DNA of 64,000 bases from Humulus lupulus (taxonomy: Eukaryota > Streptophyta > Magnoliopsida > Rosales > Cannabaceae), in NCBI RefSeq assembly GCF_963169125.1, contig NC_084802.1:36044607-36108606 (forward strand), in the 5' to 3' direction. Below are positions 28,033-50,600 of the stretch, in pieces. Made by a program: the position numbers and the translations under genes. The first letter of the stretch is position 1; each line of letters begins with the position of its first letter. The notes under the pieces were generated by a model, which saw nothing but the letters and a program-made list of their open reading frames with translations, did no database searches and was not told the DNA's origin.

Positions 28033-28266
28033 ATGTGTCCATTTACTCAATATTATGATGACTTAGGAGAGGAAGAAGTTAAAGAGATTGTGTTGCTTGC
28101 TACACATTTGATTGATCATGTTGGAGTGAGTTTTGGATCCGACAATCGCGAAGCATTATTTGAGAAAATGAAGAAACTATTCGAAGAGGAACAAACAAAA
28201 GTTGATGAGCACTTGAAAAATATGGATGCGCTCTTGAGAATGATGGAAAAGTTGAAGAGAGCGTAA
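28033..28266 (+). CDS. Unrecognised 77-residue protein
   Basis: I do not recognise this gene. The frame starts MCPFTQYYDDLGEEEVKEIV and ends in a Lys/Glu-rich, strongly helical part (EALFEKMKKLFEEEQTKVDEH, then ALLRMMEKLKRA). There is no signal peptide or membrane segment. It faces the minus-strand gene at 28466-29062 tail to tail, 200 bp apart. In size and charge it resembles the cluster genes that start at 30203, but I see no shared motif. An upstream exon is possible. Confidence 0.4.
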   Translation: MCPFTQYYDDLGEEEVKEIVLLATHLIDHVGVSFGSDNREALFEKMKKLFEEEQTKVDEHLKNMDALLRMMEKLKRA

Positions 28267-28465
28267 GGAAATTGTTTGTTTGTCTATCTACTATTGTACT
28301 TTGTAGATTTTTATTTTTATGTTTGATTGAACTAATGAAATTTTACTTTTTATTATATAATGGTTTAATTTACAACACTCATAAGATCCTTGCAAACATA
28401 AAATATAAATAGCTATCATATAATTCTTAGTACAAAAAAAGCTTGATGCATATATATAGAGACAA

Positions 28466-29062
28466 TCATGCATCACAAATTGCACCAATAAGATTATTAA
28501 TAGCATCTTTCAAATCCAAAAGCTTGATGCGAGTTTCAAATTTTAATCCTTTATCAAGACAATCATGCATATCTTTACTTCTTCTACGCAAGTCTTTTGC
28601 TTTCATGAGAATGTTATAGAAACATTTCGAGTTTGGAAAGGTTTTGGTAGAAGAAGGGATATTATCTACCTGGACATCATCGTTTCGTTCAAGCTCCTTA
28701 TAATATTCATTCGAATCTGTACATATTGTTGGTGAACCATTGATATTTTTAATTAATTGGACAACATCTATTTCCCCGTCAGTGTCGCTTGATTCAACAT
28801 CAAAAAAGCCTTCCGAAAACTCCATATCGAGTAATGCTTGAGGCCATTTTCCGAGTACATGAAAATGTTGTTCTTCCTTAACTTGATCGATTGTATTGCT
28901 ACTTTCGCCTTCAACAACAATGTCTTTGTCTGGTTCACGCGAGATAATGTCTTCATATTCAACCTCATTCTCTGCATCTTTGACTTCATAGTTGGATTCA
29001 CTTTTTGTTTCATGATTGCCACTATCTTCATCAACCCTTCTAGGCTCCATAGTAATCTCCAT
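28466..29062 (-). CDS. Unrecognised acidic 198-residue protein
   Basis: I do not recognise it. The first half is very acidic (MEITMEPRRVDEDSGNHETK; further Glu/Asp-rich runs), which suggests a disordered region. A middle stretch reads LGKWPQALLDMEFSEGFFDV, and the C-terminal third is basic and helical (FYNILMKAKDLRRRSKDMHD, RIKLLDLKDAINNLIGAI). No signal peptide or membrane segment. The uninterrupted frame in AT-rich DNA and its amphipathic end support a real gene. It is transcribed away from the nine-gene cluster that begins 1.1 kb further on. Confidence 0.5.
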   Translation of the reverse strand: MEITMEPRRVDEDSGNHETKSESNYEVKDAENEVEYEDIISREPDKDIVVEGESSNTIDQVKEEQHFHVLGKWPQALLDMEFSEGFFDVESSDTDGEIDVVQLIKNINGSPTICTDSNEYYKELERNDDVQVDNIPSSTKTFPNSKCFYNILMKAKDLRRRSKDMHDCLDKGLKFETRIKLLDLKDAINNLIGAICDA

Positions 29063-30202
29063 CTTGGAAATTATACTAATTTTTGTGTTATATTTAAAAT
29101 TTGATGAGAATAATAAAAAGCATTTATGATAGGTGGTTAGGAATATGAATAACTCCCTTTTAAAATGTTATACATAATTATTAAAAAGACACTTGTTCAA
29201 CTTCCAACCATTGTATTTTTCGAAATGGGAAGAATGGGAAGTGAATATGTATATTTTTAATAATTATGTATAATTTTCATTAATTAATTTTAAAAAATAC
29301 AATGGTAAATTGAACAGTTGCTTTTGTTTAATGGGAAGTTGAACAAGTATCTTTTCAAAAACTATGTATACTTTTTATTAAATAATTTTGAAAAAATACA
29401 TTGGTAAATTGGAAGTTGAATATGTATCTTCGTATTAATTATGTATAGCTTTTGTTAAATAATTTCGAAAAAAAATACAGTGGTAAATTGAATTGTTTCT
29501 TTAATGGGAAATTGAACAGGAGTCTTTTCAATAATTATGTACAAATTTTTAAATTAATTTCAAAATAAAAGAAAATTAAATTTGAACAAATGTGTTTGTT
29601 CAATGGGAAGTTGAACAAGTGTATTTTTAATAATTATGTGTAACATTTTTTAAAAAATGAATTAAATAAAAATCGAAATATAAAATAATATTAAATTAAT
29701 ATGGCAAAAATTAATGTAAATTTGTTTAAAATTTATTATGAAATTCGAAATTAATATTTTTTAATTGAAAACTTGTCTTTTGAATAACCCATAGAGTGTA
29801 ATAAATGTATACAAATATTGAATTAATTTTGATTCTACGCCTAGGTTCTTTGAACATAATAAATGTTGTTTAATTATATTTTGAAAATATATAATTATTA
29901 ACTTTTTTAATTGGTGTTGTGAAGATGAATAGGGGTCTTGATAAATTAAACATGTGATGTAACAAATGTGTAGAAATTTGTGAGAATAAATTCATTTTTT
30001 GAAAACACAATTTTTTAAAAATTTATATTGAAAAATTCAAAAAAATAATAGGGAATCTCAATAGGTGTTACTCATATTAATTTGATAAGATACCATCATT
30101 ATTAACTACACTATTGAATGATAAGTTTTAAAATTATTTATAAATAATCTATTACATGTATTAGTATTACATGAAAAACAAGGTTGAGAAAGAGAAGGAA
30201 AA
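29063..30202. repeat. Spacer with a degenerate repeat of about 90-105 bp
   Basis: Between about 29200 and 29660 a phrase like GGGAAGTTGAACAAGTAT plus an AATTATGTATA and a TTTCGAAAAAAATACA phrase recurs about five times (near 29229, 29332, 29411, 29505, 29606). The rest is AT-rich. I see no gene here. Confidence 0.55.
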
Positions 30203-30656
30203 ATGAAAGACATGAACAAAAAGGATAATGGGAAGCAGAAAATGGAAGACCTGAAGAAAAATGGGAAAATGAAGCAAAAGAATGAGGGGTGTACTACAGA
30301 TGATGTATCTCACATGTCGGAGGAACCAAAGTGTTTGGAAACCATTGTTCCAAAAAAAAAAAGATGTCCAACAACTTATAATACAATTCGAAAATAGGAG
30401 GTACGATATAAACACTCGTCTTCTTTGCATTAGTAGTAAAATAAATACCATTCAACAACTCTTGTTGTCAGGAAGCATCTCTACTAATCTTAACTGTGTT
30501 CCGGCCCGTGAGCTCCAAATGCTCCAAACTGAAACCTGTCAAAGGCTCATCCATGCTCTAGAAAAGGAAGATTACTACATGCGGATTGAACTCGTCAAGC
30601 TTGAACGCGATATTACTTTTCAAAAGTGGTGCTTGAAAAATTGGATCAAAGATTGA
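30203..30656 (+). pseudogene. Cluster gene B1 (type B), frame shifted at an A run
   Basis: Function unknown. The N-terminal part (30203 on: KDMNKKDNGKQKMEDLKKNG) is Lys-rich and low in complexity. The C-terminal part (30363-30656) reads TIQQLLLSGSISTNLNCVP and then RLIHALEKEDYYMRIELVKL, the EKED motif shared with type A. The two halves are in different frames, joined at a run of 11 A (30352-30362). B2 has the same arrangement and the same direction of shift, so both halves belong to one gene. Whether it is dead, mis-sequenced or read by slippage cannot be told from sequence. Confidence 0.55.
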
Positions 30657-31262
30657 AGACTGTTGTCTCGTTTTACAATTTTTATTTAAATGATTGTACT
30701 CTCTCTTTTTTTGTTAGATGTATGTTGAATTTAACATATTATTATGAAATAGAAATTTTATTTTTTTAATGGTTATAAATATTGTTATTTTGTAATATGT
30801 ATATTTATTTTTTATCTTTATTTTTCGTTATAAAAAATGTAATAAAAAATTAGTGGGTTTTGTCGAAAGTTTAAAAAGTCATTACTTTTTTTATATAATT
30901 TTTTAATATAAATAATGACAATTTTTCGAAAATATTGTTAAAAAATACTTAATTATACATGTTAATAGAATTAATAAATAAAAAAATAAGAATATGAGTA
31001 GTCAATGACATTTATGGATTTATTTGTATTTATTACAATTAATATTTTTATTTGGTAAACTAATTAATTATAATAATAATAATAATAATAATATTTGTAG
31101 TATTTCAAAAATAGCAAATACTTAGCATAATTGACTCCTTGTATTTCCCATCAGTCATTATTATTCCTCATGTTTTATCTTCTTTATTATTACTTCATTA
31201 TATATATGTGGCTAGAACATATTTTTTTTATCATCATAAAGATTGTTCATCATAGAGAGAAA
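30657..31262 (+). promoter_or_regulatory. Spacer and promoter of gene A1a
   Basis: AT-rich spacer with a (TAA)n microsatellite near 31069-31093. A TATA box TATATATATG at about 31199-31208 lies about 55-60 bp before the ATG at 31263. The leader ends GAGAGAAAATGGAC, much like that of A1b. Confidence 0.6.
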
Positions 31263-31613
31263 ATGGACATAAACAAGATAGAGGAGATCATTCTTACTAG
31301 ATCACTTTCGAAATTCAAAGAAAAATTCTCAAGTGGAGAGTTGTACAGTTTCATGGAAGAGATTAAGATACGCCTCAATAGATCATTTGAAGAAAGAATT
31401 ACAATGAGAAAGGCAATGATGGATCAAGCATTTAGATAATGGAGTGGAGAAAGCCCTAAAGTACGTGAAATTCGACACATTCAGAATGAATTATTCCAAA
31501 AGTTCATCGATGCTTCTGAGCAGGAGTACTTGTATTGGATGACACAAATGTATGATGTTGAACGTGAAATTGTATATCATGAAATGTTGTTGGATGCTTT
31601 CAAGAACATTTAG
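31263..31613 (+). pseudogene. Cluster gene A1a (type A) with one internal stop
   Basis: Function unknown. It starts MDINKIEEIILTRSLSKFKE and is closely similar along its whole length to A1b, including IDASEQEYLYW and YDVEREIVYHEMLLDAF. An in-frame TAA at 31437-31439 replaces a Gly codon (A1b has FGEWSGES), after which the frame is open to a TAG at 31611-31613. One base change separates it from an open 116-codon frame, so it died recently or the stop is an allele. Confidence 0.7.
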
Positions 31614-32107
31614 GGATTGTCTATTTTGTCTACAAAAATTAGAGTGTTTGTTCATCTATATTGAATTAAGAATTTTATTCTTGTAAATGGAAATTTGATC
31701 TTTTTTTTAATTATTATTATTGTTAGCAATTTACATATCAATTTTTTTTTCTTGTAGCAATATATTTCAAAAATGAACAAAGCCATTTATCCTATAAAAT
31801 GTATTTCGAAAATGACTAATTTTTTACTAAGATATATTTCGAAAATGATATATTTTAAAAAAATCCTTAGTGTAAATTTAAAGTAAATATTTTTTATAAA
31901 TATTATTAATTATTCCAGAGTAGTTGACTCCTCGTCTTGCTCATCACTCATTATTATTCCCGGTGTCTTCTCTTACTTATTAATTATCTGTGTAGAAAAA
32001 CAATGTTGAATACAAACTCTTTATATATATATATGTGTGACTAGGCAACCCTAGTTCATCATCATCACTAAGGTTGTCCATTTAGGTACCAAAAAAATAG
32101 AAAGAAA
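31614..32107 (+). promoter_or_regulatory. Spacer and promoter of gene A1b
   Basis: AT-rich. The last 180 bp echo the DNA before A1a (TTGACTCCT, CATCA.TCATTATTATTCC, TATATATATG, TTCATCATCATCA), with a TATA box at about 32022-32033. The upstream DNA was therefore duplicated together with the gene. Confidence 0.6.
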
Positions 32108-32458
32108 ATGGACAACAAGATGATAGAGGAAATAATTCTTACTAGATCACTTTCGAAATGCAAAGAAAAATACTTAAGTGGAGAGTTGTACAATTTCGTG
32201 GAACAAATTAAGTTGCGCCTCATGAGATCATTCGAAGAAAGAAGTATAGTGAGAACCGTCTTCATCGATCAAGTATTTGGAGAATGGAGTGGAGAAAGCA
32301 CTAAAGTATGCAAGATTAGAGAAATTCAGAATGAATTAGGACAAATGTTCATCGATGCTTCTGAGAAGGAGGACTTGTATTGGAGGCGTCTAATGTATGA
32401 TGTTGAACGCGAAATAGTATATCATGAAACTTTGTTGAACTCTTTCATGAATATGTAG
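32108..32458 (+). CDS. Cluster gene A1b (type A), intact 116-residue protein
   Basis: I do not recognise the family. The protein is charged and predicted helical throughout, with no signal peptide, membrane span or Cys pattern. It starts MDNKMIEEIILTRSLSKCKE. A conserved type A core includes SLSKCKE, SFEERSIVR and, near the end, FIDASEKEDLYWRRLMYDVE, followed by YHETLL. The start follows a TATA box by about 75-85 bp and the ATG context AAAATGGAC is good. Paralogues are A1a next door and A2 at 42719. Conservation of these motifs between copies that differ at many other sites argues for selection on the protein. Confidence 0.75.
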   Translation: MDNKMIEEIILTRSLSKCKEKYLSGELYNFVEQIKLRLMRSFEERSIVRTVFIDQVFGEWSGESTKVCKIREIQNELGQMFIDASEKEDLYWRRLMYDVEREIVYHETLLNSFMNM

Positions 32459-33459
32459 GAATATTCATACTTTGTTTTAAAATATTATATAATGATTTAT
32501 CGGTTATGAATTGAAAGTTAATTTTTATGGTTATTTTTTATAATTAAAACTTTGCAAGTTCATTTAAAAATAATAAAATTTGATATTATTTTACTATAAA
32601 AATTAAATTAAATTAATACTGAAAAATATATTTAATTGTCCAATTAATTTTTATTTTTTTATATTTTAATTATTATGCATGATTTAAGTATAGTGGTGAT
32701 AATAAAATTTGCATTTAATATTGATTTTTCTTTTTAAAAAACTGAAAAAATCATGTTGTTTATTATTATTTCAATACATATTGATGATAAAATCAAATCT
32801 TTCTACTCCCCATATTTATCCCACTTTCCCAAAAAAATATAAATATAAATGTATTATTTTATTGGGAAGATGAATATGTATCTTTCAAATGAATAAGTCT
32901 TTCTGATTAAACATGCAATGTTTTGTTATATAAATATTGAAATCTAGGTTTTATGTATAGGTTCGAAAATATGTATAGGTTCCCAAAAAAATATAAATGT
33001 TATTATCTAAATCCTATTAATTTTTATCATGTTTAAATATAATATAATATTTTTTGAAAATATAAATAGGGTATTTCGAAAATATGTATAGGTTCCCAAA
33101 AAAATATAAATGTATATTTTAAAAATAAAGTTTAAAATAATAATAATTATAATTAAATGTGAAATCTAGGTTTTATGTACATGCATGAAGGTTTAGAGTT
33201 GAAAAAAAAATTATATATATAATAATAGTTATTAATGTGGCCGAAATTTTGTTGTCTCTCCAACAACATTAATGGCTGAATATTTTTTTTCTAATTATAT
33301 AATATTTAAATCAATGAAGTTGAAGAGTTGCAATTGTTAATAAATTAATATTATTTTTTTAATTATTTAAGAACACACTTTATATATTATACACTTCTTC
33401 TTCAAACACAACCTACTTTACTCTCCTTTCACATATTTCTTTGTCTTTCAACATTCCTC
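32459..33459 (+). promoter_or_regulatory. Spacer and promoter of gene C1
   Basis: AT-rich. A phrase with GTATAGGTTCCCAAAAAAATA and AAATGT occurs twice (near 32971 and 33086). A TATA box TTTATATATTA at about 33380 precedes the ATG by 75-80 bp, with a pyrimidine-rich leader in between. Confidence 0.55.
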
Positions 33460-33466
33460 ATGGATA

Positions 33467-33482
33467 ACATGATTCAAGATCT
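33467..33482. repeat. LINE target site duplication, left copy (16 bp)
   Basis: ACATGATTCAAGATCT, identical to 38411-38426. The length is typical for LINE insertion. Confidence 0.92.
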
Positions 33483-34702
33483 AGCAGTAAAAGCAGAAAC
33501 CTCAACAATATTCAAGGCGTGTGATAATTCTCTCTCTCTCTCTCTTCCCGTGGCTCGGAAGAAGAAAGGTTTATCGAAGTCGGTGGTGGTTTCCGATGAG
33601 GTGGTGGAAGACCTCCCTTCGATCCAAGAAGAGGTACCAGTTCTGATTCCTGATGACGAATTTCATGACCCGTGTGATGAGCTGGAGTTGGACCGTGGAG
33701 TAGATTTGAATTATGCTGGAAATGTGAATCGTTCCTCTCCCAATTCAGTGAGTTGGGCTGAGGAGGCTGAGGGATCTGAATATCAGAGGACGACTAAGGA
33801 TGTTTGGAGTAAGTTTAAGTCGAACCAGGTCCTTACCCCTTCTACTCGCTTGAATTATACTGAACCTCTGATAGTGGGTGACCAAATTGTGGCCCGTTTA
33901 GACATGGAGGAGGTGGAGACTGAAGCTTCATTCTGGAAGAATGCTATTGTATGTATTGTGCTGGGAGCTAACCCACCCTTTAGAGTGTTTGAAGGGTTTG
34001 TCAAGAGAATTTGGGGCAACTTAGGTGTTGATAAGATAGTTAGAATGCACTCAGGTTTTACCCTTGTTAACTTCAGGGATGAAGCTACTCGGGATCTGAT
34101 TTTGGAAACAGGAGTTATACATTTTGATAAAAAAACCGGTGGTTCTTCGTCCTTGGACGTCAGATATGGACTCAGTGAGAATGGTCAAGTCGGTGCCGGT
34201 TTGGATTAGGCTGAATGGGTTGGGTCTGCAATACTGGGGAAAAAATAGTCTCAGTGCTATGGTGAGCACTATTGGGAGGCCGGTTATGGTGGATAAAGTG
34301 ACGCAAAATAGATCGATGGTGAAATATGCTAGGATTTTGGTGGATATGGAGATTTCGGATCACCCTCCGAAATCTATTTCTTTTATCAATGAAAGGGATC
34401 AGTTAGTAGAACAGTTGGTGGAGTATGAATGGTTACCCTCTAAGTATGCTGCTTGCTCGAACTTAGGTCATGTTTTGGCGAACTGTAATAAGAATAATGG
34501 TTTGAGTTGGAAGAAGAAACCTACTGTTGAGAATGGAGCTAAATTAGACAAGTTAAAAGGCAATTCAGAGGAGGAGAATCAACAGCCTTCTGGGTCTGTT
34601 AGTCCTGCTACCAGAGCGGGTATGTCCTCAAGTAATGGAGATAAGGAGAGGACCAGGAGTTCAATTGAGTTAAATGATTCTAAGGATAGTAATGTAGTTT
34701 AG
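33483..34702 (+). pseudogene. LINE ORF1 (DUF4283-type RNA-binding protein), frameshifted
   Basis: ORF1 proteins of plant LINEs bind the RNA. The first frame (to 34209) holds an acidic N-terminus and a DUF4283-like domain (ASFWKNAIVCIVLGANPPFR, FEGFVKRIWGNLGVDKI, GFTLVNFRDEATRDLIL). At the A run near 34127-34133 the frame shifts and the domain goes on in the second frame to 34702 (VVLRPWTSD, SVPVWIRLNGLGLQYWG). The zinc knuckle is degenerate: CSNLGHVLANC remains but the first Cys is gone. The first frame is open through the target duplication into the host ATG at 33460. Confidence 0.85.
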
Positions 34703-34911
34703 GACATCTCAAATGTTGCTCAGCAAGTTGGAACAGGGAGTTCTGTTGGTGCTGGAAACTGGATTACTCCCAAAAGGAGAGGGTCTCGACAGGTTATAGC
34801 AGATCCTTATAAGACAGATAAAGCTTTAGGCAAGGGTATTTCGGGTAATGATTATGCTGTTCTTCAAGAAACTGGGGTTGGTCATTTGGTTACTAATTCT
34901 AACCCAATTAA

Positions 34912-37900
34912 GTGATGGAGGTTTGTAATATGATAGGGTGGAATGTGAGGGGTATGAATAAAAGAGATAAGAAACATGCTATTCTTAGTATATGTAAGGA
35001 AAATAAGGTTGGTTTTGGAGCTTTATTTGAGACTAAGGTGAAACATGAGAAGATTAAGGAAGTTTTTGAAAATAATTTTCACAATTGGGATTACTTTTCT
35101 AGTCCTATTGTTTCTGGTAGAATCTTAGTTTTTTGGCAAGCTAAGTTTGTGAAGGTTGACATCTTACTTGAAGATCCTCAACTAGTTCATTGTAGGATCA
35201 GAGTGAGTGGCCAGCAGAAAGTGTTTTTTGCTACAGTGGTTTATGGAAGTAACTCAATGGGGGAGAGGAAAAAACTGTGGGATAAGTTAGCCAGTATTGG
35301 TCAGTTAAAGTTTCCTTGGATCATTTTTGGAGACTTTAATGCCATGTTTAGCTACCTAGACAGGAATGGTGGGAAACAAATCCTTGCAAAGGATATTGCT
35401 GATGCTCAAGATTGGTTGGCTTTAGGCCAAGTAGAGGAACTCAAATGTGCTGGTGCTCTCTATACGTGGTCGAACAAACATGAAGCAGGAGACCGCATTT
35501 TCTCTAAACTAGATAGAGTCTTTATTAATGATTTGTGGCTGGATGCTTTCCCGAAGACTGAAGCTTGCTTCAAATGGGACTGTATTTCCGATCATAGCTT
35601 CTATGTGATTAGAAGTCAAGAAGTTAACAAGGTGGGTTTCATTCCTTTTCGTTATGGTAACCATTGGTTGCAGTATAGAGGCTACAGAGATGCTGTTCTT
35701 CATTGTTGGAATGCACCAGCAGGTTCCGGTAGAGGTCTTAGCAAGGTGGTTCAGAAATTATTTAGAGTAAAACATATTTTGAAAAGGTTCAACAGGGAAG
35801 AGGTTGGAGATGTTGTTTTGACTTATAGGGAGGCTAAGGAAGAGTTCAGTAAAGTTCAGGAGGCTTTGGCAGTTAATCCTTCTGATGTGTCTCTGCATCA
35901 ATCTGTTAAACAAGCTCAACACAATGTTACAGTAATGCAGAGCCGATATGCCAGTTATCTCAAACAGCAGAGTAAACTTAATTGGGTCAAGTTCAGTGAT
36001 GAAAATTCGAGGTTCTTTCATGCTTTTATGAGGAAGAGAAGAGTTGATAATAGAATTACGTATGTCACTATTGGAGACAGAATAGAAGAAGATTATCCCA
36101 AAGTTGTTGAGCACTTTCTCTCCCATTTTAAGAATTTCATGGGGAGGAGAAGTTTGGCGACTAAAGAAATTGATAAAAACTGTATATTCCAGGGTAACAG
36201 ATTGTCTTTGGATCATCAAGTCAGGTTATTGAGACCGTTTAACAAGAGTGATGTGAAGAAGGCTCTTTTTAGTATTCACTCCTTTAAAAGTCCTGGTTTG
36301 GATGGTTTTGGCTCGGGTTTCTTTAAGGGTTTATGGACTGATATTGGTGATGAAATTTCTACTGCTGTGTTGGAATTCTTTCAGGATGGGTTCTTGCCGA
36401 AGGAATTGAATGAAACCGTGATTTCTCTTATTCCTAAGATAGCTGATCCGAGCTCAGCTAGTGACTATCGCCCAATCGCGTGTTGCAATACTCTCTACAA
36501 GTGTATCTCGAAGATGATTTGTTCTAGACTTTCGGAAGTGCTTCCCTTCCTTGTTCATAGTAATCAAGGGGCTTTTATTAAAAACAGAGTTCTAGCTCAT
36601 AATATTATGATTTTCCAGGATCTCCTCAAAGGGTACACTAGAAAGAATATTTCAGCTAGATGCTTAATGAAGATAGATCTGAGCAAGGCTTATGACACAG
36701 TTGATTGGCTTTTTGTGGAGGAGTTTCTTAAGCATCTTTGCTTCCCCTCTAGATTTATTGATTGGATTCTAGCTTGCTTGAAAGGTACCAACTATAATCT
36801 TCTAATGAATGGTAGAATTCAGGGCCCTTTTAAAGGGGAAAAAGGCCTTCGGCAAGGGGACCCTATGTCTCCTCTCTTGTTTGTGCTTATTATGGAGTAC
36901 CTTACTAGATTATTAGCTCATTTCTCTGATAAAAAAGGCTTTGGTTTTCACCCTTTGTGTAAACATCTTAGGTTAACTAACCTATGTTTTGCAGACGATT
37001 TGATTATCTTTTGTAAAGGTAATGTCAGTTCAGTGAGTAAGATTCAAGAAGCCTTCACTTCGTTTTGTGATTCTACAGGGCTCTCTGCGAATAAATCTAA
37101 ATCCCATATCTACTTTGGTGGGGTTAAGGAAACCATTAAAGTTCAGATACTTGGGTTGATGCAAATGGAAGAAGGTTCCTTTCCCTTGAAGTACTTGGGG
37201 GTTCATCTTCGGCCTACCAAGTGGAAAGCTTCAGACTGTGGGGTGATCCTGGATAAGCTGAACAAGAAACTTAATTGTTGGGCGAGTAGAAATTTGTCAT
37301 TTGCTGGTCGTGCCCAACTTATACACTCAGTTTTGCTTGGTATTAGAAACTTTTGGATGAGTATATTTATACTTCCGTCCAAAATCACTACAGCCATTGA
37401 TAAAAGTTGTCGGGACTTTCTTTGGGGCACTAATGCGAATAGAAGTAAGCTTCATCTCCCTTCTTGGGAAAAGGTTTGTCTCCCTAAAAAGCTGGGGGGG
37501 TATTGGTTTTCGTGAAGGTAAGAAATGGAACATGGCTTTGATGGCGAACTTCATTTGGGCGACAACTTCCAAACAAGACTGCCTTTGGGTTAAATGGATT
37601 AGTTCTATATATCTGAAGGAGTACAACATTTGGAATGTTCCTATCAATCAGGATATGAGCTGGTATTTTAAGAAATTGTTGAGGCTGAGACAAGTTATTG
37701 ATGAGGGTTACTTGAAGCAAGCTGTTAAGGGAGGTAAATTTCGTATCAAACACTTTTATACCTCTCTTATTTCTGCTCAACTAGTTGGGTTTGCTAACAC
37801 GGTGTGGAACAAACTTATAGTGCCCAAACATAGATTCATATACTAGCAGATTTTCAACAATCAATTGCTTACTAGAGATCATTTGAGCTGGTTCTTGCAT

Positions 37901-38290
37901 CTATCCTCTGCTCTCTGCCCTGTTTGTGAGGATGGTTTAGAATCTCACAGCCATTTGTTCATGGATTGTATATATTCCAGGAAAGTGTTTGAGGAAATTG
38001 GTAATTGGCTGGGTCATTTGCATTGGCCCTAATCTTATGAGGAGCTTAATCTGTGGTGCTTGGAAGCTAAGCAAGATCTGAAGAACCAGATTGTTAATGC
38101 AGTTTTGTCAGCGTCCTGGTATTTTATTTGGAGCAACAGGAATAACTGCATTTTTAACTCAGTTTGTAAATTGGCCAGCAGCATTAGTTTGGACATCAAG
38201 GATTCAGTGAAGTATAGAATTTTGGGCTTGGGTTCTCTTTGTCATAGAAAAAGGGACTTGTATTTTCGTAAGGTAGTAGAGGGCTGGTAG
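34912..38290 (+). pseudogene. LINE ORF2: endonuclease and reverse transcriptase, frameshifted near the end
   Basis: The main frame runs 34912-37515 (867 residues). An apurinic-type endonuclease is shown by GWNVRGMNK (residue 9), FETKV (about 39), FGDFNAM (about 138) and SDHSF (about 225). Reverse transcriptase is shown by ASDYRPIACCNTLYK, SKAYDTVDW (about 588), GLRQGDPMSPLLF and the catalytic FADDLIIF (about 690). A run of 7 G (37494-37500) shifts the frame. The next frame (GIGFREGKKWNMALMANFIW) meets a TAG at 37844-37846, then a zinc-binding CPVCEDGLESHSHLFMDC, another TAG near 38031, and ends at 38290. Confidence 0.9.
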
Positions 38291-38410
38291 TTTTATGTTA
38301 TCCTTAGTGTTTTGCTGAGTTAGTAGCTTGCTGGTTTGTAGCAGCTGCTTTCTTTGAGTTGTGTACTTGGTTTGTTTTTTAATAACGTTTTTCTTTTGTT
38401 CAAAAAAAAA

Positions 38411-38426
38411 ACATGATTCAAGATCT
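38411..38426. repeat. LINE target site duplication, right copy (16 bp)
   Basis: ACATGATTCAAGATCT, identical to 33467-33482. Confidence 0.92.
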
Positions 38427-38739
38427 CATCTCTCTTGCTGAAGGCATGATAAAAAAATTGAAATTCATTTTGTCAGTAGCAGAGATCTTGCCTTCATCAA
38501 AATTTACTGAGTTCGAAGATGGAACAAATTTTCCCTACAAGTTTGCCACAATATCTCGAAAAATAAGGAGGGGATTGAACAAGATATATGTTGAAAACTT
38601 GAAGGAAGAAATTGAAGATTGGAACAAAGAACTTGTCAAAATGAAGAAGACTCGTGAAAGCATCAAGAAGAGGATTATGGAAGATGAAGAAGGAGAAGGA
38701 GAATCTTCAAATAAAAAGATAAAGGGAAATGAAGAGTAG

Positions 38740-39455
38740 ATTTTAAGTTAGAGAATATTAATTATTTGTATTTTGTTTTTATTTTATGCTTAATTTTTAA
38801 TATGAACAAATATTTTAAGTTTTTCAGTAAAAAGTTTAAAATTTATTGTGTTTCTTCTCGTTATTTAACATCTTACAAAATTATATTTAATACAGTGAAA
38901 TTAAAAAAAAAATTAAATTTAAAAAAAATGATTATTGTCAATTAATAATAAAAATGTTTATTTTACCCAATAAATAATTAAATAATATGATTTAATATTC
39001 AATTAATATATGACCATTAAAAAGATACCTAATCGGTTTCCAATTAATGTCTTTTTTTCATACACCATTTCAATAAAATAGGAACAATTTTCGAAAAAAA
39101 ATAGGTGGCCAAATAATACCCTATATTTTCGAAAATGGGAATAACCACCTCAAAATTAATAGATGCAATTATTCGTATCATAAATGCACACTAAATGAAA
39201 AGTTGCATGTGGCCAAATAATACCCTATATTTTCGAAAATGGAAACATGCATGTATTTGAAAAGTTGCAATTACTCATTAAATATATTATTTTCATAAAC
39301 AAACAATTAAAAAATATTTTTTCATAACCCTACACAACATCTTCTTTGGCTATATATATTCTAAAGTAGATTAAATAGTTTTCATAAAAATATATATCTC
39401 TTCATCAGTTTCTCTAGAAAATTCCTACATCTCTTCTAAACAATTTTTCATTATT
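38740..39455 (+). promoter_or_regulatory. Spacer and promoter of gene D1
   Basis: AT-rich spacer. The phrase GTGGCCAAATAATACCCTAT with TTTTCGAAAATGG occurs twice (near 39105 and 39211). A TATA box CTATATATATTC at about 39350 precedes the ATG by about 105 bp, with a leader rich in TCTCTTC. Confidence 0.55.
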
Positions 39456-39833
39456 ATGGAAGACTTTATAACTTTCCATGTACCTATTCTTTCAATGATT
39501 GAATTGCTGGAACGCCAATTATCCATCGTCAAAACATTTGCCAAAGAAGATACTTCTCAAAGAGAAAGCGAATCGGAGTCTGAAATTGTCATTTTTGCCA
39601 AGAAGCAACAACAAAGAAGAAAATGTTTGACTTCTCTTATGGTTGAAAATTTGGAATATGAAATTGAACTTTGGAGAGAAGAACTTCAGAAGGTGAGGAA
39701 GGATGACGAAGACGTCTTCGATCAATTATTGGGTGGCAACGAAGAACTATTCAAAAAGAATATGAAAGTTCTCTTGGAGGATGAAAAAATCGATATCAGT
39801 GGAATTTATTTGAACTCCGACAAGGATGAGTAG
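39456..39833 (+). CDS. Cluster gene D1 (type D), intact 125-residue protein
   Basis: I do not recognise the family. Starts MEDFITFHVPILSMIELLER, a mildly hydrophobic helix rather than a signal peptide, then a Glu/Ser-rich stretch, then LTSLMVENLEYEIELWREEL, which carries the same VENL..EI..W motif as type C. The C-terminal part is acidic (DQLLGGNEELFKKNMKVLLE). The frame is open and preceded by a TATA box. The paralogue D2 at 47185 is similar over the whole length. It closes the first B-A-A-C-D set. Confidence 0.72.
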   Translation: MEDFITFHVPILSMIELLERQLSIVKTFAKEDTSQRESESESEIVIFAKKQQQRRKCLTSLMVENLEYEIELWREELQKVRKDDEDVFDQLLGGNEELFKKNMKVLLEDEKIDISGIYLNSDKDE

Positions 39834-41203
39834 ATTATCAGTTTTATTATTTTACTTAAATTATTATCAAGTTTCTTCTTTGTTTTATTTTGTAAGTTTA
39901 TGAGTTTGTTATGACATTGTTCTTCAGTCCTAGTGATTGATTCTTACATTAATCTCTCTAATATTATTAAGAATTTCAAGTTTTTTTTTTATTTTGTCAA
40001 AATTTTTTATTATTTTTCATGTATATTTTATTAAAAATAACTTATATGCATCATTCATGAGAATTGGTTATATTTTCCAATTTATTTTTTTTTTAAAAAA
40101 ATTATTGAAAATTTGACCAAAATTTGTAACTAATAATAATAGCATGTTTGAAATTTTGGATTCCTTTATGGAAAAAAATTAATGAAAGAAAAACATATTA
40201 AATTGATAAGCAAAAATTTCTCAAAATCGAAAAATGCAATAAATATATAAATAACTACCTTTATTATTTTGGCTGAATTTTTTGAAATATTATATAAGTG
40301 TGTAATTCAAATAATAATAGTAATAAATGATGGGTAGTTGAACAATTGCCTTTACAATAAAGTCATAATAATTTTATTATAATTTAAAACTTAAACTTTG
40401 TATTGGAAGTTAAACTAGTAATTAAATACATTTATAAAAAGGTGTGTGGTATACAATTTTTATGAGAATATCGAAATTTATTAAATTGAATAAATGAATT
40501 TTTTTTTAATTTCTAATTAATTTTTTCATCTAGTTAGGTTATAAAAACTCTTTATATATGTAGGTCAAGAATTTACAAAGATAACCTAAAAAATAGATAA
40601 ACATAATAAAAAAACGGAGTACATCAACGATATGTAACTAAAATTAATAACTAAATGAATTGGTTATATTTTCCTTTTTTTTTTTTTTTAATTATTGAAA
40701 ATTTGACCAAAGTTTGTAACTAATAATAATAGCATGTTCGAAATTTTGGATTCCTTTATGGAAAAAAATTAATGAAAGAAAAACATATTAAATTGATAAG
40801 CAAAAATTTCTCAAAATCGAAAAATGCAATAAATATATAAATAACTACCTTTATTATTTTGGCCGAATTTTTTGAAATATTATATAAGTGTGTAATTCAA
40901 ATAATAATAGTAATAAATGATGGGTAGTTGAACAATTGCCTTTAAAATAAAGTCATAATAATTTTATTATAATTTAAAACTGAAAATTTGTATTGGAAGT
41001 TAAACTAGTAATTAAATACATTTATAAAAATGTGTGTGGTATACAATTTTTATGAGAATGTCGAAATTTATTAAATGGAATAAATGAATTTTTTTTTAAT
41101 TTCTAATTAATTTTTTCATCTAGTTAGGTTATAAAAACTCTTTATATATGTAGGTCAAGAATTTACAAAGATAACCTAAAAAATAGAGAAACATAATAAA
41201 AAA
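39834..41203 (+). repeat. Spacer holding a direct duplication of the promoter region of B2
   Basis: Copies 40061-40634 and 40657-41224 are nearly identical for about 570 bp, from GAATTGGTTATATTTTCC to ACATCAACGATATG. The second copy ends in the start of B2. In the first copy the start codon is ACG instead of ATG and a stop follows within a few codons, so it is a promoter copy without a gene. Both have a TATA-like TTTATATATG about 55-60 bp before the start position. Confidence 0.85.
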
Positions 41204-41837
41204 ATGGAGTACATCAACGATATGGACAAAGAGAATGAAAACAAGGAGGGTATCAAGACTATCGATAAAGAGAATCAAAACAAAGATATGGTCAACGATA
41301 TGGAGAAAGAGAAGCAAAAAATGACTGATATTATTATTTTTGAGGAAGGCAAGCAAAAAATGGACGACATCAACGATGTACAGAAAGATAAGCCAAAAAT
41401 TGAAGACATTGATCATATAGCAAAAGGGAAGCAAAAATGGGCAGATGTTACGGATGAGGAAAAAAAAATTGGTAGACGTGAAGGATATGGAACTAGACGA
41501 TGTGTTCCTCAATAAAGTTGTTGAATTACTATCTGATAATACAACTATTAATCTTAAAGAGCTCACCACATCGGTAGATATAAAAAAAAAGAAGGATGAA
41601 ATCAATCAACTCTTGGTTCTTCTCTGTACCAGAAAGACTAAACTTGGGTCTCTCTTTTCATCTCGATGCATCTCAAGTCGCCTATGGAGTCCTGAGGCAT
41701 GCAAGATGCAACTTTCTCAACATATCATCCTTCAGAAATTCATCCATGCTGTAGAGAAGGAAGAACACTTTTGGCTCCAAGAACTCTTGAAGATTGTTCA
41801 TGATGAAAATAAAGATCATAGTCTACTCAAATTTTGA
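41204..41837 (+). pseudogene. Cluster gene B2 (type B), frame shifted at an A run
   Basis: Function unknown. The N-terminal part (MEYINDMDKENENKEGIKTI, with repeats of the kind KGKQKMDDINDVQKDK) is highly charged and repetitive. At a run of 9 A (41460-41468) the open frame changes and continues VDVKDMELDDVFLNKVVELL, then LQKFIHAVEKEEHFWLQELL near the end, the type B/A motif. B1 has its frame change at the same place and in the same direction. The product would be about 210 residues if the frames were joined. Confidence 0.6.
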
Positions 41838-42718
41838 AAAATGTTATTTCTCATTAAAGTTTTTATTTTGACAATATTAGTTTTCTTCTCTCTGTAATTT
41901 TTCGTCTATGAATTTTATTTTATGAATTTTAGTTTCTCTACAATATTCTTCAATTTATTTGTTTGCAATGTTCTTCAACACATGAACATTATAAATTGTT
42001 ACGATAAGTAAATGGCAAAATGTTAAGAGTAACTTATGATAATAATTTCTCACTAAACCATAATATATTTTAAGTAACTATAATTATTTAATAATAATAA
42101 TTTTCAGAAATTATAATTAATCTAAAATTTAGTAATTTATTTAATATTTTTTTAGAATTTGATAACTTTTAAAATTAATAAAACATTACATAAAATAACT
42201 ATAATTATTTATTAATATTAATTATCGAAATGTATATTAAATATAAAATATAGTAATTTATTTAATATATCTTTGTAGATCTCGAAAACTATACAAATTA
42301 TTAAAAACTAAAATGTTACATAATACCCAAACACACATCCCACAACTATAATAAATACTAAAACACACATGCCACAACTATAATTCTTGGATATGTAAAA
42401 GGTCTTCTCGAAATTATCAATTTATATTTAATCACTGTAATAATAGTAATGAAAAATGCTATAAAAGCCTATCTTAATTACTTTTATTTAAAAAAAACAA
42501 ATATATATTTTTGTTTAGATATGTAAATATATTTTCGAAGTTACCAATTGAATATTTAATTATTATAGTTGGAACATGTTACATCTCTTTATAATCAATG
42601 TAACCATTTTAATGGGAAATGCATTGAACTCTCATATTCCATAGTTAATTATGATTAATAATAAAAGCATACTATATAAGTGACAACATTATTCATTATT
42701 GAAAAGTGATAGTTCAAG
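41838..42718 (+). promoter_or_regulatory. Spacer and promoter of gene A2
   Basis: AT-rich. A phrase TAACTATAATTATTTA with TAGTAATTTATTTAATAT is repeated near 42067 and 42195, and an AACACACAT.CCACAACTATAAT phrase near 42330 and 42363. A TATA box ACTATATAAGTG at about 42669-42680 precedes the ATG by about 40-50 bp. Confidence 0.55.
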
Positions 42719-43096
42719 ATGAGTCACAACATAATGCATAACAAATTTATGGTGGAAATTGTTCACCGTCATTCCATTTCCAAATGCAAAGAAAGATTCA
42801 TCACTAGAGACTTACATGCTTTGCGGGATGATATTCAGTCGCGCATCTTGCAAAATTTTCATGAAAGAAGTACAATAAGGATGATCTTGGCAGATCTGGT
42901 AATCCAACGATACTCGACAAATCCTTTGGATTTGAAAGATATTGAACAAGCTCAAAAAGATTTAGCGTTATCTTTTATTGAAGGTTCGGAGAAGGAAGAC
43001 TTGTTTTGGAGGCAACAACTGCTTGATGTTGAATATGAAATTAATTATCATGAGTCTTTGCTTTTCAATCACATGCATGGTTCAAATAAAAAATAA
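42719..43096 (+). CDS. Cluster gene A2 (type A), intact 125-residue protein
   Basis: I do not recognise the family. It keeps the type A landmarks of A1b: HSISKCKERF, NFHERSTIRMILADL, and LSFIEGSEKEDLFWRQQLLD followed by YEINYHESLL. The middle (STNPLDLKDIEQAQKDLA) has diverged. The open frame, TATA box and kept motifs support a real gene. An alternative start is the Met at codon 6 (MHNKFMVEIV), which would fit the length of A1b better. It lies in the second cassette between B2 and C2. Confidence 0.73.
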   Translation: MSHNIMHNKFMVEIVHRHSISKCKERFITRDLHALRDDIQSRILQNFHERSTIRMILADLVIQRYSTNPLDLKDIEQAQKDLALSFIEGSEKEDLFWRQQLLDVEYEINYHESLLFNHMHGSNKK

Positions 43097-43530
43097 CCAT
43101 ATGTTCCTCTTTATTTTCTTTAGGTAATCAAATGTACTACATTGGAAGTTGTTTTGTTATTTAATGTTATAATATTATATCAATTCCAAAATTTTGTTAA
43201 TAATTTGCTGGATTTATTAACAATTGCCAATTACCATTATTTTCAAAATAGCATAGGTGGCTGAATCTTATGTGTTCAAGTGTTTCATATTTATTAATAA
43301 AATAACGTTATTATCTACTTTCCAATAATATCCAATTCCCTATTAAATGGCCAAAAATTAGGTAATTATGTAGTGGTCTTGGTCGAAATTTATTAAAAAA
43401 ATTGAACAGGCACTTGTCTTTGAAACCCTACTTATTTATATATCACACACCTTAATTTGAACCTCTACATATCTTATTATTTTAGTAAAAAAATTAACAC
43501 AGTTTTTATCATCTCTTTCTACTCTTAGCC
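43097..43530 (+). promoter_or_regulatory. Spacer and promoter of gene C2
   Basis: AT-rich. A TATA box TTTATATATCAC at about 43435 precedes the ATG by about 95 bp, and the leader is pyrimidine-rich (ATCTCTTTCTACTCTTAGCC), like that of C1. Confidence 0.5.
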
Positions 43531-43938
43531 ATGTCTGATATAGATCAAGAATAGTTATCTCTAGTAGAAGGAATGATTGAGAATCTTCAATCCTTGATGA
43601 AGATTGCCGACACTTTGCCTACCTTGCCAATCACCAAGGTTGGAGACGGTACACATTTTGAAGATGGTGGCCGAATTCCTTATCCATTTGCCAGTATATC
43701 AAAGACAATGAGAAGGGAACTAACCCAGTTATATGTTGAAAACTTGAAGGAGGAAATAAATAAATGACAAATTAAACTAGCAAAGATCAAGAGAGATTGC
43801 AAACAGATTTAGAAGGTGCCACATGAAGACTACAAAGAGGTAACTATGAAATTTCTTCATCATATCAGTGAAAACCCAACAAAGAAGATGATGATCGAAG
43901 AAGATCACGCCAATAAGAAGAGGAAGGCCGAAGATTAG
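43531..43938 (+). pseudogene. Cluster gene C2 (type C), three in-frame stops
   Basis: Function unknown. It lines up with C1 from the start (MSDIDQE, then LSLVEGMIENLQSLMKIADTLP) through YPFASISKTMRRELTQLYVE and NLKEEINK, to a Lys-rich end (KKRKAED). Stops in the same frame are TAG 43552, TGA 43765 and TAG 43810; the final stop is 43936-43938. The frame is otherwise continuous. From the Met at 43573 only 64 residues could be made. Confidence 0.75.
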
Positions 43939-46303
43939 TAGTTTTGTTTTAATTTTTTTTACTATTTCCACAAGTATTTTATGTTTAATTTTGTTGATTT
44001 TATTTTTATTATTGTACCCTTTCAAATATCTATATTGTCTTGAATATGACTATTATTATATAAAAGGAGAGTTCTTGAATTTTAAGATGTGTAATTATTT
44101 TTTATTTTTAATCTTAAAAAATTTCAATATTAATTGTAAACCATAATTGGCATAGCCGAAATTAGGGTTTGGATAGTTAGTTATTGTCTTTGAATATGAA
44201 GAGGTGCATTTAATAATTAGTGTAAACCCTAATTATACAAATTAATTGAATTTTCACAATTCTCAAAACTATATTTAATTTTTTAGAAAAAAAATAATTT
44301 TTCTCTCTAATATTTTGTTGTGGCCGAAAAAAGGGTGTATAAAAATATTAATTTAATAAATTTTGATTTAATACCAAGATTTTGATAGTTGGTTAGAGTG
44401 TTTGAATTTGATAAGGTGCAAATTAATTGAATTTTCACAATTATCAAAACTATATTTATTTTTTTTAAAACAAAACAATTATTCTCCTAATAAATGTAGT
44501 GGCCGAAAAATGGGTTTAAAAAAATATTAATTTAGTAAATTTTGATTTAATACTAAGATTTTGATAGTTGGTTAGAGTGTTTGAATTTGAAAAGGTGCAT
44601 TTAATATTTAAGATATATTCAATATTTAATTGTTCAAACTAATAATTAGTGTAAACCCTAATTATACAAATTAATTGAATTTTCACAATTCTCAAAAGTA
44701 TATTTAATTTTTTTGAAAAAAAATAATTATTCTCTAATATTTTGTTGTGGCCGAAAAATGGGTGTATAAAAATATTAATTTAATAAATTTTGATTTAATA
44801 CCAAGATTTTGATAGTTGGTTAGAGTGTTTGAATTTGAAAATGTGCATTTAATATTTAATATATATTCAACATTTAATTGTTCAAACTAATAATTAGTGT
44901 AAACCCTAATTATGCAAATTAATTGAATTTTCACAATTCTCAAAACTATATTTAATTTTTTTTTAAAATAATTTTTCTCTCTAATATTTTGTTGTGGCCG
45001 AAAAATGGGTGTATAAAAATATTAATTTAATAAATTTTGATTTAATACCAAGATTTTGATAGTTGGTTAGAGTGTTTGAATTTGAAAATGTGCATTTAAT
45101 ATTTAAGATATATTCAATATTTAATTGTTCAAACTAATAATTAATGTAAACCCTAATTATGCAAATTAATTGAATTTTCACAATTCTCAAAACTATATTT
45201 AATTATTTAGAAAAAAATAATTATTCTCTAATATTTTGTTGTGGCCGAAAAATGGGTGTATAAAAATATTAATTTAATAAATTTTGATTTAATACTAAGA
45301 TTTTGATAGTTGGTTAGAGTGTTTGAATTTGAAACGGTGCATTTAATATTTAAGATATATTCAATATTTAATTGTTCAAACTAATAACTAGTGTAAACCC
45401 TAATTATGCAAATTAATTGAATTTTCACAATTCTCAAAACTATATTTAATTATTTAGAAAAAAAAATAATTATTCTCTAATATTTTGTTGTGGCCGAAAA
45501 ATGGGGTATAAAAATATTAATTTAATAAATTTTAATTTAATACCAAGATTTTGATAGTTGGTTAGAGTGTTTGAATTTGAAAATGTGCATTTAATATTTA
45601 AGATATATTAAACATTTAATTGTTCAAACTAATTATTAGTGTAGGCCCTAATTATGCAAATTAATTAAATTTTCACAATTCTCAAAACTATATTTGTTTA
45701 TTTTTTAAAAAAAACAAAACAATTATTCTCCTAATAAATGTAGTGGCCGAAATTTTTTTGATTGAGTGCTAGAATATAGATAGTTGAATTTGAAAATGTG
45801 CATTTAATATTTAAGATATATTCCATATTAATTATTATTTTTTAATATTGCCAAAAAAAATCTCTAAGGAAACCGAAATTCTATATAAAAAAAGACATTG
45901 AAAATGTTGCATTGCTTCATAATACTTAGTTAGAGTGTTTGAATTTGAAAAGGTGCATTTAATATTTAATATATATTCAACATTTAATTTGCAAACTAAT
46001 TATTAGTGTAGGTCCTAATTATGCAAATTAATTAAATTTTCACAATTCTCAAAACTATATTTATTTATTTTAAAAAAAAAACAAAACAATTATTCTCCTA
46101 ATAAATGTAGTGGCCGAATTTTTTTTGATTAAGTGCTAGAATATAGATAGTTGAATTTGAAAAGATGCATTTAATATTTAAGATATATTCCATATTAATT
46201 ATTATTTTTTAATATTGCCAAAAAAAATCTCTAAGGAAACCGAAATTCTATATAAAAAAAGACATTGAAAAGGTTGCATTGCTTCATAATACTTGGTTAG
46301 AGT
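43939..46303. repeat. Tandem array with a roughly 245-bp unit downstream of C2
   Basis: Units are marked by GTGGCCGAAA near 44320, 44502, 44747, 44993, 45242, 45491, 45741 and 46110. Each also has GTGTTTGAATTTGAAAA, GTGCATTTAATATTTAAGAT and CCCTAATTATGCAAATTAAT. The last two units (about 45610-45940 and 45970-46300) are longer (about 365 bp) and include TCTATATAAAAAAAGACATTG. The first part (44085-44260) is a different arrangement that matches the 460-bp satellite unit further on. No coding frame. Confidence 0.9.
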
Positions 46304-47097
46304 TGTTGACGCCGTTTGTCGTCAACAGTGAAAGAAGAGCACGTAAACAATAAACAGTAATGGCCAATAAAAATACGATGATACAAAACACGATTTTTAC
46401 GTGGTTCAGCAGTTAAATCTGCCTAGTCCACGAGTCTTTCTTATTAAGACTTAAGAATATCTCTGAAAATCCTTCAAGGATGAATTCTTCAGAGTTTTCC
46501 TTAAGCTCACAAAAGTTCGGTCCCTTACAATAGTGCATGACCTCTCTATTTATAGAGAAGATTGTAGAATACTATCCCACATATTTTGGGTAGTTACTCT
46601 TTTTATGCAAATAAATTAAATGGCCTTAAATGCCTGCAATCTGATGTAAAAGGAAACGTCCCCTGAAGACCAGGTGGCGTATAACTAATCAAATAATATC
46701 CCCTGATTGTAGGGGATTTACAGTAATAAATGTAGACCGCGTCTCTTATAGACGACTCATTAGGATATTCAAGGTTATTATCCTATATCACCAAGGCCCT
46801 ATTCTCCCAGGTCTCCTATCGACTTTCGAGCTAATAACATCTCCCGAGGCCACATGACTTCGAGATCGTATGCGTCAGGCTCGGAGCCCATGATCCGAGG
46901 TCATCCCTGAGAACAGATGCACCTCGGGGGGCCTACCTTTCGAGCTTATGGATTTCGAAGCCACCATCTTCGAAGTCATCTCAGCTTTGCAGGCTCGATG
47001 TCTAGATTTGGAACATATTCCAGACTTTACGAGTTCATTCATTATGTGTCCAGCTTTCGAGGTTACACTTCTCATGGCTCGAAATCTGGGTATAACA
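46304..47097 (-). mobile_element. Solo LTR of the same family as Tat element 2
   Basis: 794 bp, TGTTGACGCCG at 46304 and GGGTATAACA at 47097, with a perfect target duplication AGAGT (46299-46303 and 47098-47102). Reversed, it matches the 58046-58836 LTR, including the TATA box (minus CTATAAATAGAGA near 46556-46544). It lies between a TATA-like sequence (46248-46260) and the start of D2 (47185). Short open frames in it (46875-47175) are not genes. Confidence 0.9.
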
Positions 47098-47184
47098 AGA
47101 GTATTGTCCTATATATTCTACATTTCAAAGACAGATAGAAAAAAAAATCTTTATATTTGGTTAGAGTTAGAATAGATGTTGAGC

Positions 47185-47544
47185 ATGGAAGATTTCATTG
47201 CCTTTCAATTACCAATTCTGGTTATGATTGATTTATTAAGGGAGCAATTGTCAATAGTAGAAACATTGGCCAAGGAAAGAGACTATCATGTCCCACGAAG
47301 CAACGTTTGTGATCTCATCAACTTCTCCATCGCCCAACAAGAGAAAAAAGCGGAGTTAACCAAGCTTATGGTTAGAAACTTGATGTTGGAGATCCAAATT
47401 TGGAATAAAGAAATGGTGAAAGTTCAGATTGGTGAACAACGAATCTTTAAAGTTTTAACAGGCGGTGACAAAAAACGCTTTGAAAAGTATATGAAGATGC
47501 TAATAGATGATGAAACAATTAAAACAACAAAGCAAGGTCAATAG
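47185..47544 (+). CDS. Cluster gene D2 (type D), 119-residue protein
   Basis: I do not recognise the family. Starts MEDFIAFQLPILVMIDLLRE, matching D1 closely, so I prefer this Met to the upstream one at 47176. It continues QLSIVETLAKE, then KLMVRNLMLEIQIWNKEMVK (the type C/D motif) and FKVLTGGDKKRFEKYMKMLI, which parallels D1 (LLGGNEELFKKNMKVLL). The frame is open. A solo LTR has entered its presumed 5' leader, so normal expression is doubtful. Confidence 0.7.
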   Translation: MEDFIAFQLPILVMIDLLREQLSIVETLAKERDYHVPRSNVCDLINFSIAQQEKKAELTKLMVRNLMLEIQIWNKEMVKVQIGEQRIFKVLTGGDKKRFEKYMKMLIDDETIKTTKQGQ

Positions 47545-47699
47545 ATTTCTAAGATTTTATTTATGATTGTTATAGTTTTTTCTTGATGTATTTTTTTTAA
47601 ATTTTTTTTGTTTAGTTTATGATTAATATAATAAATGTTGACCTTGCAGATTTTGGTTTAGTTTTTTGTTTTTTTAAATGTTATAGTTTTTTCTTGATG

Positions 47700-50600
47700 T
47701 ATTCTCAATACCATGATTAAATAACTTCTCCTATTTCGAAATTAAAAAAAAATTAATAATTAGCCCTATTTTTTTGGTAGCCGAAATTAATTTAAAAAAA
47801 ATGACTTAAAACCCTAATTATGCAAATGAATTAAATTTTCCAATTCTCAATGCCATGTTTATAATATTTGACAAAAAAAACAATTAAAACAATAGATCCA
47901 AATTTATCAAAAATTAATGATAAAAAATATATTTTTATATAATTAATTATTTGAATCTTTCAATTTGAAGATATGCATTAACAATTAAAACTACATATTT
48001 TTTTAGCCGAAATTAATGATAAATTTCAATATTAATTGTAAACCACAATTGGCATAGCCGAAATTAGGGTTTATATATTAATAAATTTTACACATCTAAT
48101 TATAATTTTTTAAATTAGAGTTTAGATAGTTGGTTATTGTCTTTGAATATGAAGAGGTGCATTTAATATTTAACATATATTCAATATTTGATTGTTCAAA
48201 CTAACTATTAGTGTAGGCCCTAATTATGCAAATGAATTAAATTTTCCAATTCTCAAAACCATATTTATAATATTTGAAAAAAAAAAAAATAATTAACCCT
48301 ATATTGTTGTAGCCGAAATTAATGATAAAAAATATATTTTTATATAATAATTAATTATTTGCTAAATGATAGGATATATATAGTCTTTGAATCTTTCAAT
48401 TTGAAGAGGTGCATTAACAATTCCCACTTCTCAATACCATATTTAAGATGTGCAATTATTTTGTATTTTTAATGCTAAAAAATTTCAATATTAATTGTAA
48501 ACCACAATTGGCAAAGCCGAAATTAGGGTTTGTATATTAATAAATTTTATACTTCTAATTATAATTTTTTAAATTAGGGTTTAGATATTTGGTTATTGTC
48601 TTTGAATATGAAGAGGTGCATTTAATATTTAACATATATTCAATATTTAATTGTTCAAGCTAACTCTTAGTGTAGGCCCTAATTATGCAAATGAATTAAA
48701 TTTTCCAATTCTCAATACCATAATTATAATATTTGAAAAAAAAAAACACAATAATTAACCCTATATTTTTGTAGCCGAAATTAATGATAAAAAATATATT
48801 TTTATATAATAATTAATTATTTACCAAATGCTAGGATATATATATAGTCTTTGAGTCTTTCAATTTGAAGATGTGCATTAACAATTCCCACTTCTCAATA
48901 CCATATTTAAGATGTGCAATTATTTTGTATTTTTAATGCTAAAAAATTTCAATATTAATTGTAAACCACAATTGGCAAAGCCGAAATTAGGGTTTGTATA
49001 TTAATAAATTTTATACTGCTAATTATAATTTTTGAAATTAGGGTTTAGATAGTTGGTTATTGTCTTTGAATATGAAGAGGTGCATTTAATATTTAACATA
49101 TAGTCAATATTTAATTGTTCAAACTAACTATTAGTGTAGGCCCTAATTATGCAAATGAATTAAATTTTCCAATTCTCAATACCATATTTATAATATTTAA
49201 AAAAAAACACAATAATTAACCCTATATTGTTGTAGCCGAAATTAATAATAAAAAATATATTTTTATATAATAATTAATTATTTGCTAAATGCTAGGATAT
49301 ATATAGTCTTTGAGTCTTTCAATTTGAAGAGGTGCATTAACAATTCCCACTTCTCAATACCATATTTAAGATGTGCAATTATTTTGTATTTTTAATGCTA
49401 AAAAATTTCAATATTAATTGTAAACCACATTGGCATAGCAAAAATTAGGGTTTGTATATTAATAAATTTTACACACCTAATTATAATTTTTGAAATTAGG
49501 GTTTAGATAGTTGGTTATTGTCTTTGAATATGAAGAGGTGCATTTAATATTTAACGTATATTCAATATTTAATTGTTCAAACTAACTATTAGTGTAGGCC
49601 ATAATTATGCAAATGAATTAAATTTTCCAATTATCAATACCATATTTATAATATTTGAAAAAAAAACACAATAATTAACCCTATATTGTTGTAGACGAAA
49701 TTAATAATAAAAAATATATTTTTATATAATAATTAATTATTTGCCAAATGCTAGGATATATATAGTCTTTGAGTCTTTCAATTTGAAGAGGTGCATTAAC
49801 AATTCCCACTTCTCAATACCATATTTAAGATGTGCAATTATTTTGTATTTTTAATGCTAAAAAATTTCAATATTAATTGTAAACCACATTGGCATAGCCA
49901 AAATTAGGGTTTGTATATTAATAAATTTTACACATCTAATTATAATTTTTGAAATTAGGGTTTAGATAGTTGGTTATTGTCTTTGAATATGAAGATGTGC
50001 ATTTAATATTTAACGTATATTCAATATTTAATTATTCAAACTAACTATTAGTGTAGGCCATAATTATGCAAATGAATTAAATTTCCCAATTCTCAATACC
50101 ATATTTATAATATTTGAAAAAAAAACACAATAATTAACCCTATATTGTAGTAGCCGAAATTAATAATAAAAAATATATTTTTATATATTAATTAATTATT
50201 TGCTAAATGCTAGAAAATATATAGTCTTTGAGTCTTTAAATTTGAAGAGGTGCATTAACAATTCCCACTTCTCAATACCATATTTAAGATGTGCAATTAT
50301 TTTGTATTTTTAATGCTAAAAAATTTCAATATTAATTGTAAACCACAATTGGCAAAGCCGAAATTAGGGTTTGTATATTAATAAATTTTATACTTCTAAT
50401 TATAATTTTTGAAATTAGGGTTTAGATAGTTGGTTATTGTCTTTGAATATGAAGATGTGCATTTAATATTTAACATATATTCAATATTTAATTGTTCAAG
50501 CTAACTATTAGTGTAGGCCCTAATTATGCAAATGAATTAAATTTTCCAATTCTCAATACCAAAGTTATAATATTTGAAAAAAAAAACACAATAATTAACC

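Follow-up and report, generated by a model that had tools for sequence, protein, structure and literature searches.

A cassette of small genes in the hop genome is probably the cargo of a giant Mutator-like DNA transposon

A row of small genes in a 64,000-nucleotide stretch of the hop (Humulus lupulus) genome, hereafter called the window, is probably carried as internal cargo by a large DNA transposon of the Mutator-like group, which has a transposase of the FAR1/MULE type and whose own length is at least about 27 kb. The assignment to a Mutator-like element follows from dispersed collinear copies, a co-located transposase, a fragment of an Ulp1-type gene, and a left end that is common to the copies. 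The first-pass annotation had described a lineage-specific cluster in which single copies decay. What we found instead was an element dispersed in many near-identical copies; two of the genes that are broken in the window, A1a and C2, contain no stops in the copy on contig C3 (the C3 copy). The small genes are transposon genes by location, not by sequence match; their copies do not all match a known transposon-encoded protein.

Nine genes or gene remnants are present on the plus strand in the order previously given, B1-A1a-A1b-C1-D1 followed by B2-A2-C2-D2 (Table 1). The evidence that these are real genes exceeded chance expectation. There are six ATG-initiated open reading frames (ORFs) of at least 108 amino acids in 13.9 kb of DNA with a GC content of 25%, whereas in 300 first-order Markov simulations the mean number of such ORFs was 0.05 and the maximum was 1. 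All nine genes have a TATAWA sequence 40 to 130 bp upstream, compared with a background of 0.29. Also inside the element, at positions 28466-29062 of the window, is an acidic minus-strand ORF of 198 amino acids (ORF F); its DNA is 98% identical in the C3 copy, with a 2-base gap.

Table 1. Features of the element in the window (positions are those of the window).
Feature	Position	Strand	Remarks
Visible part of giant Mutator-like element (probable), nested insertions included	25292..58046		Left end to last satellite unit
Ulp1-type (Peptidase_C48) fragment	26485..26760	+	PF02902, E 3.1e-6, above cut-off; same stretch in C3 copy
ORF E, 77 aa	28033..28266	+	99.1% identical in C3 copy, without stops
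B1	30203..30656	+	Read in two frames that overlap around an 11-A run
A1a	31263..31610	+	One inner stop; C3 copy without stop
A1b	32108..32458	+	Intact
C1	33460..38739	+	Split by LINE: first codons 33460-33482, remainder 38410-38739
Nested L1 LINE	33483..38409	+	17-bp target-site duplication; RVT_1 1e-37, endonuclease 4e-6
D1	39456..39833	+	Intact
B2	41204..41837	+	N-terminal part in other frame; split near a 9-A run
A2	42719..43096	+	Intact
C2 gene	43531..43938	+	Several inner stops; none in C3 copy
Tandem repeats, units of ~180, 248, and 367 bp	44238..46303
Solo LTR	46304..47097		5-bp duplication; directly upstream of D2 TATA box
D2	47176..47544	+	Intact
459-bp satellite, 21.7 units	48021..58046		Much shorter in C3 and C2 copies

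The genes had been sorted into four types, which hhalign reduces to two. A aligned with B at an E value of 4e-8 and C with D at 2e-7, and neither score was reached in any of 100 column shuffles. On these profile alignments, A and B group as one family and C and D as another. Comparison of A+B with C+D gave an E value of 0.03 (0 of 100 shuffles), a result that the unrelated ORF F equals against A+B (E 0.04; 0 of 60 shuffles). The description of the products as small helical proteins of unrecognised families held: there was no credible match in Pfam, NCBIfam (C/D set), or the PDB, and at the Pfam cut-offs no match was obtained for A to D, ORF E, or ORF F. In structural models, both families are predicted to form soluble helical hairpins, and neither has a known domain. 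The mean pLDDT was 84.6 for A1b (5 sequences), for which the other four models averaged 42 to 74, and 71.9 for D1 (11 sequences).

The 2.48-Gb genome (121 contigs, ten of them large) was searched with A1b and D1. With 150 of 293 candidates scored, A1b has at least 150 matches; for D1 the number is at least 130, from 150 scored candidates out of 232. Matches to each gene occur on all ten large contigs. The best 29 A1b places besides the window have 91 to 98% protein identity, and the divergence of their DNA from the window copy has a median of 2.0% and a maximum of 3.5%. An ATG start is present in 29 of the best 30 A1b copies and an inner stop in 3, but these best-ranked figures flatter the family, and lower-ranked A1b matches often contain stops. 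Of the 40 best A1b places, which include that of the window, 36 have a D gene no more than 20 kb away, compared with a random mean of 0.05; this count used 121 of the 130 D matches, the nine omitted being second pieces beside included ones, and the random control omitted contig C38. Nested insertions aside, the C3 copy is collinear with the window, at 95 to 98% identity, between 25.3 and 48.8 kb. Both it and the C10 copy contain about 1.2 kb near window position 26370 that is missing from the window.

Much of the damage in the window is absent from the C3 copy, which has no inner stops in A1a, A1b, D1, A2, the C2 gene, D2, or ORF E, and none in B2 from its 16th base onward. The B1 frame split is identical in the two copies. 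C1 had been given a start at 38413; however, the L1 LINE interrupts this gene after about eight codons, and the true start is at 33460, upstream of the LINE. A database protein, P0008, spans the LINE site unsplit. The LINE is not in the C3 or C27 copies and so is private to the window copy among those compared. The solo LTR is likewise absent from the C3 copy, whose DNA runs straight across the site. The window is plant-type DNA, and Gypsy elements flank both sides; the left one contains a 119-bp tandem array of 10.9 units (window 10543-11827). Outside the element, at window positions 18460-21899, 2 kb of DNA are enclosed by an inverted repeat (about 740 bp, 77%); this is possibly another long-ended transposon.

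The left end falls at the same base (approximately window position 25292) in the window, C10, and C3 copies, with an AT run adjoining it in each and different DNA further left. Just left of the giant element is a small palindromic-ended element (window 24880-25263) with ends that resemble the giant element's left end; a relative of this small element is found at the C3 locus (82%). On the right, the remainder of the giant element lies beyond a Gypsy element that starts at approximately 58047. In the C3 copy, the distance from the left end to the end of an array shared with the copy on contig C2 (the C2 copy) is about 49 kb. Subtracting insertions of approximately 12.4 and 9.6 kb, which are absent elsewhere, leaves about 27 kb, so the element's own length is at least about 27 kb, rising to about 29 kb if the final stretch, seen in the C3 copy alone, is part of it. 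No inverted copy of the left end was found in the right-hand stretches examined, which stop short of the right end; some MULE groups lack terminal inverted repeats.

We next consider selection on the small genes. C and D are under purifying selection: ω was 0.10 for C1/C2 and 0.13 for D1/D2 (P < 1e-6), with dS near saturation. Values for A1b/A2 (0.82) and B1/B2 (0.51) were not distinguishable from 1, and pN/pS among 30 A1b copies was 0.80 (0.44 to 1.45), so that A1b shows no sure constraint. The dN/dS comparison suggested in the first-pass annotation was thus mixed, in favor of constraint for D1/D2 but not for A1b/A2. That annotation had also proposed that a whole cassette was duplicated. An ordered, duplicated set is indeed present, but one single event is doubtful because the best estimate of dS is about 0.8 for A1b/A2, whereas C1/C2 and D1/D2 both reach about 2 or more. 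The spread is smaller in a plain count of changed codons, which gave 0.37 for A1b/A2 versus 0.44 and 0.62 for C1/C2 and D1/D2.

The selection results bear on whether the small genes do anything for the element. It is conceivable, if rather unlikely, that they are captured host passengers of the Pack-MULE kind with no such role. MULEs do capture host genes (PMC13317346), and the ω of A1b, being indistinguishable from 1, is what a passenger would give. However, ω is about 0.1 for C1/C2 and D1/D2, two families have been duplicated inside the element with frames kept open and promoters retained, and no host donor gene was found within this genome.

The window itself shows no transposase, and the 40 places scored (of 144 candidates) include none at the window locus. 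In the C2 copy, FAR1 (2.8e-17) and MULE (PF10551; 2.7e-21) domains are encoded on the minus strand to the right of D2 and a short satellite; a SWIM match was below its cut-off. The transposase gene in this copy is in several ORF pieces (introns or damage) and is followed by a RING-H2 ORF (1e-12). The order D2, satellite, transposase, RING-H2 gene is common to the C2 and C3 copies at 94 to 96.5% identity, although the RING ORF of the C3 copy has a stop, and in both copies a 223-bp tandem array then comes after the RING gene. Among the 40 scored places with the transposase stretch, a D gene lies within 20 kb in 25 cases and within 50 kb in 29, compared with random means of 0.09 and 0.15. In C3 alone, a small ORF that has a TATA-like box of its own was seen to the right of the RING gene, at the low end of C3:75607001-75615000; its frame stays open for 118 codons, up to where the examined DNA stops, and it contains IKVE and IKTE, which we take to resemble SUMO sites.

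At the remaining 11 of the 40 scored transposase places, no D gene lies within 50 kb. This would be expected if the small-gene unit and the transposase belonged to two mobile elements that are often found together, the unit moving by other means, for example, with the satellite or as a nonautonomous element. The C28 copy also fits such an arrangement in that it has both D1 and D2, yet the 20 kb to the right of D2 contain no match to the C2 transposase stretch, and in the C27 and C28 copies the stretches that were compared had no long match to the transposase part of C3 or to the C2 stretch. We nevertheless consider two elements distinctly improbable. The series from D2 through the satellite and transposase to the RING gene is collinear in the C2 and C3 copies despite different nested insertions, and C2 DNA beyond the transposase is 97.8% identical over 92 bp to DNA from inside the element in the window. 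A lineage-specific cluster of host genes with birth-and-death turnover, which would account for the ordered paralogues, the TATA boxes, and the purifying selection on C and D, is hardly credible given the dozens of near-identical dispersed copies, their common left end, and a copy number that contradicts it.

A short motif recurs in the DNA of the element. TTTCGAAA was observed 22 times versus 1.7 expected from trinucleotides (13-fold) and ranked first for enrichment among all words of 7 or 8 letters; the count covers 9.8 kb of noncoding, nonsatellite element DNA, 2.2 kb of it from the C2 copy. For TTCGAA the count is 28 in the element parts (about 18 kb) versus 4 in the remaining window. The density of this hexamer in coding DNA (7 in 4.5 kb) equals that of the element overall, which counts against a purely noncoding signal. 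Of 18 CpGs within TTCGAA, 16 are retained in C3, versus 31 of 43 other CpGs, which is not clearly better. In the 459-bp satellite, GCCGAAAT, which is related to the TTTCGAAA palindrome, occurs 37 times and accounts for 37 of the 48 satellite CpGs.

If the small genes are indeed cargo of one giant Mutator-like transposon, it would have inserted beside AT repeats and been amplified recently across the genome. The element may be autonomous, its movement driven by the transposase gene that lies to the right of the satellite, convergent with the small genes. Each small gene would be expressed from its own TATA box, and the A/B and C/D proteins would be accessory factors made by the element that act on, and may bind, its own DNA or chromatin, where TTTCGAAA palindromes recur. 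In VANDAL elements, vanC recognises short motifs in noncoding DNA and lowers methylation, and Ulp1 is present in some such MULEs (PMC6446971, PMC13317346). By analogy with this motif recognition, we tentatively propose that the A/B and C/D proteins could be anti-silencing or transposition cofactors. A more specific version, which we consider unlikely, is a regulatory system of the element's own, with no sequence relation to vanC, in which A/B or C/D proteins would recognise TTTCGAAA palindromes, and the GCCGAAAT of the satellite, throughout the element and keep copies unmethylated and mobile, with Ulp1 and RING-H2 acting on the SUMO/ubiquitin side of silencing.

The hop element has partial counterparts among known MULEs. 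VANDAL (Hiun) elements with vanB and vanC and the Ulp1-bearing KIU (Kaonashi) elements likewise combine a MULE transposase with further genes (PMC6446971, PMC13317346); the hop element resembles KIU in having an Ulp1 domain, here only as a fragment, and VANDAL in having a repeated short motif. Unlike either, it has nine small helical genes (two families with no Pfam match), a RING-H2 gene, satellites, and a FAR1-bearing transposase. FAR1 together with MULE is also found in the Jittery sub-group, whose transposase has FAR1 at its N terminus and which is listed for dicots and monocots in the table of PMC6446971; that table gives Jittery one ORF, whereas the hop element has at least a dozen. Pack-MULEs, too, are MULEs with nontransposase genes. 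However, they carry host gene fragments (PMC13317346), whereas here no donor was found within this genome and C and D are under purifying selection.

A large transposon with a dozen accessory genes is difficult to recognise: it is fragmented by satellites and nested retrotransposons, and its proteins are missing from the family libraries that were tried. Our results also caution that, where small orphan genes cluster in a large plant genome, they may be cargo of a transposon. If the helical proteins prove to be anti-silencing or transposition factors, they would provide a new, testable case of plant transposons evading methylation.
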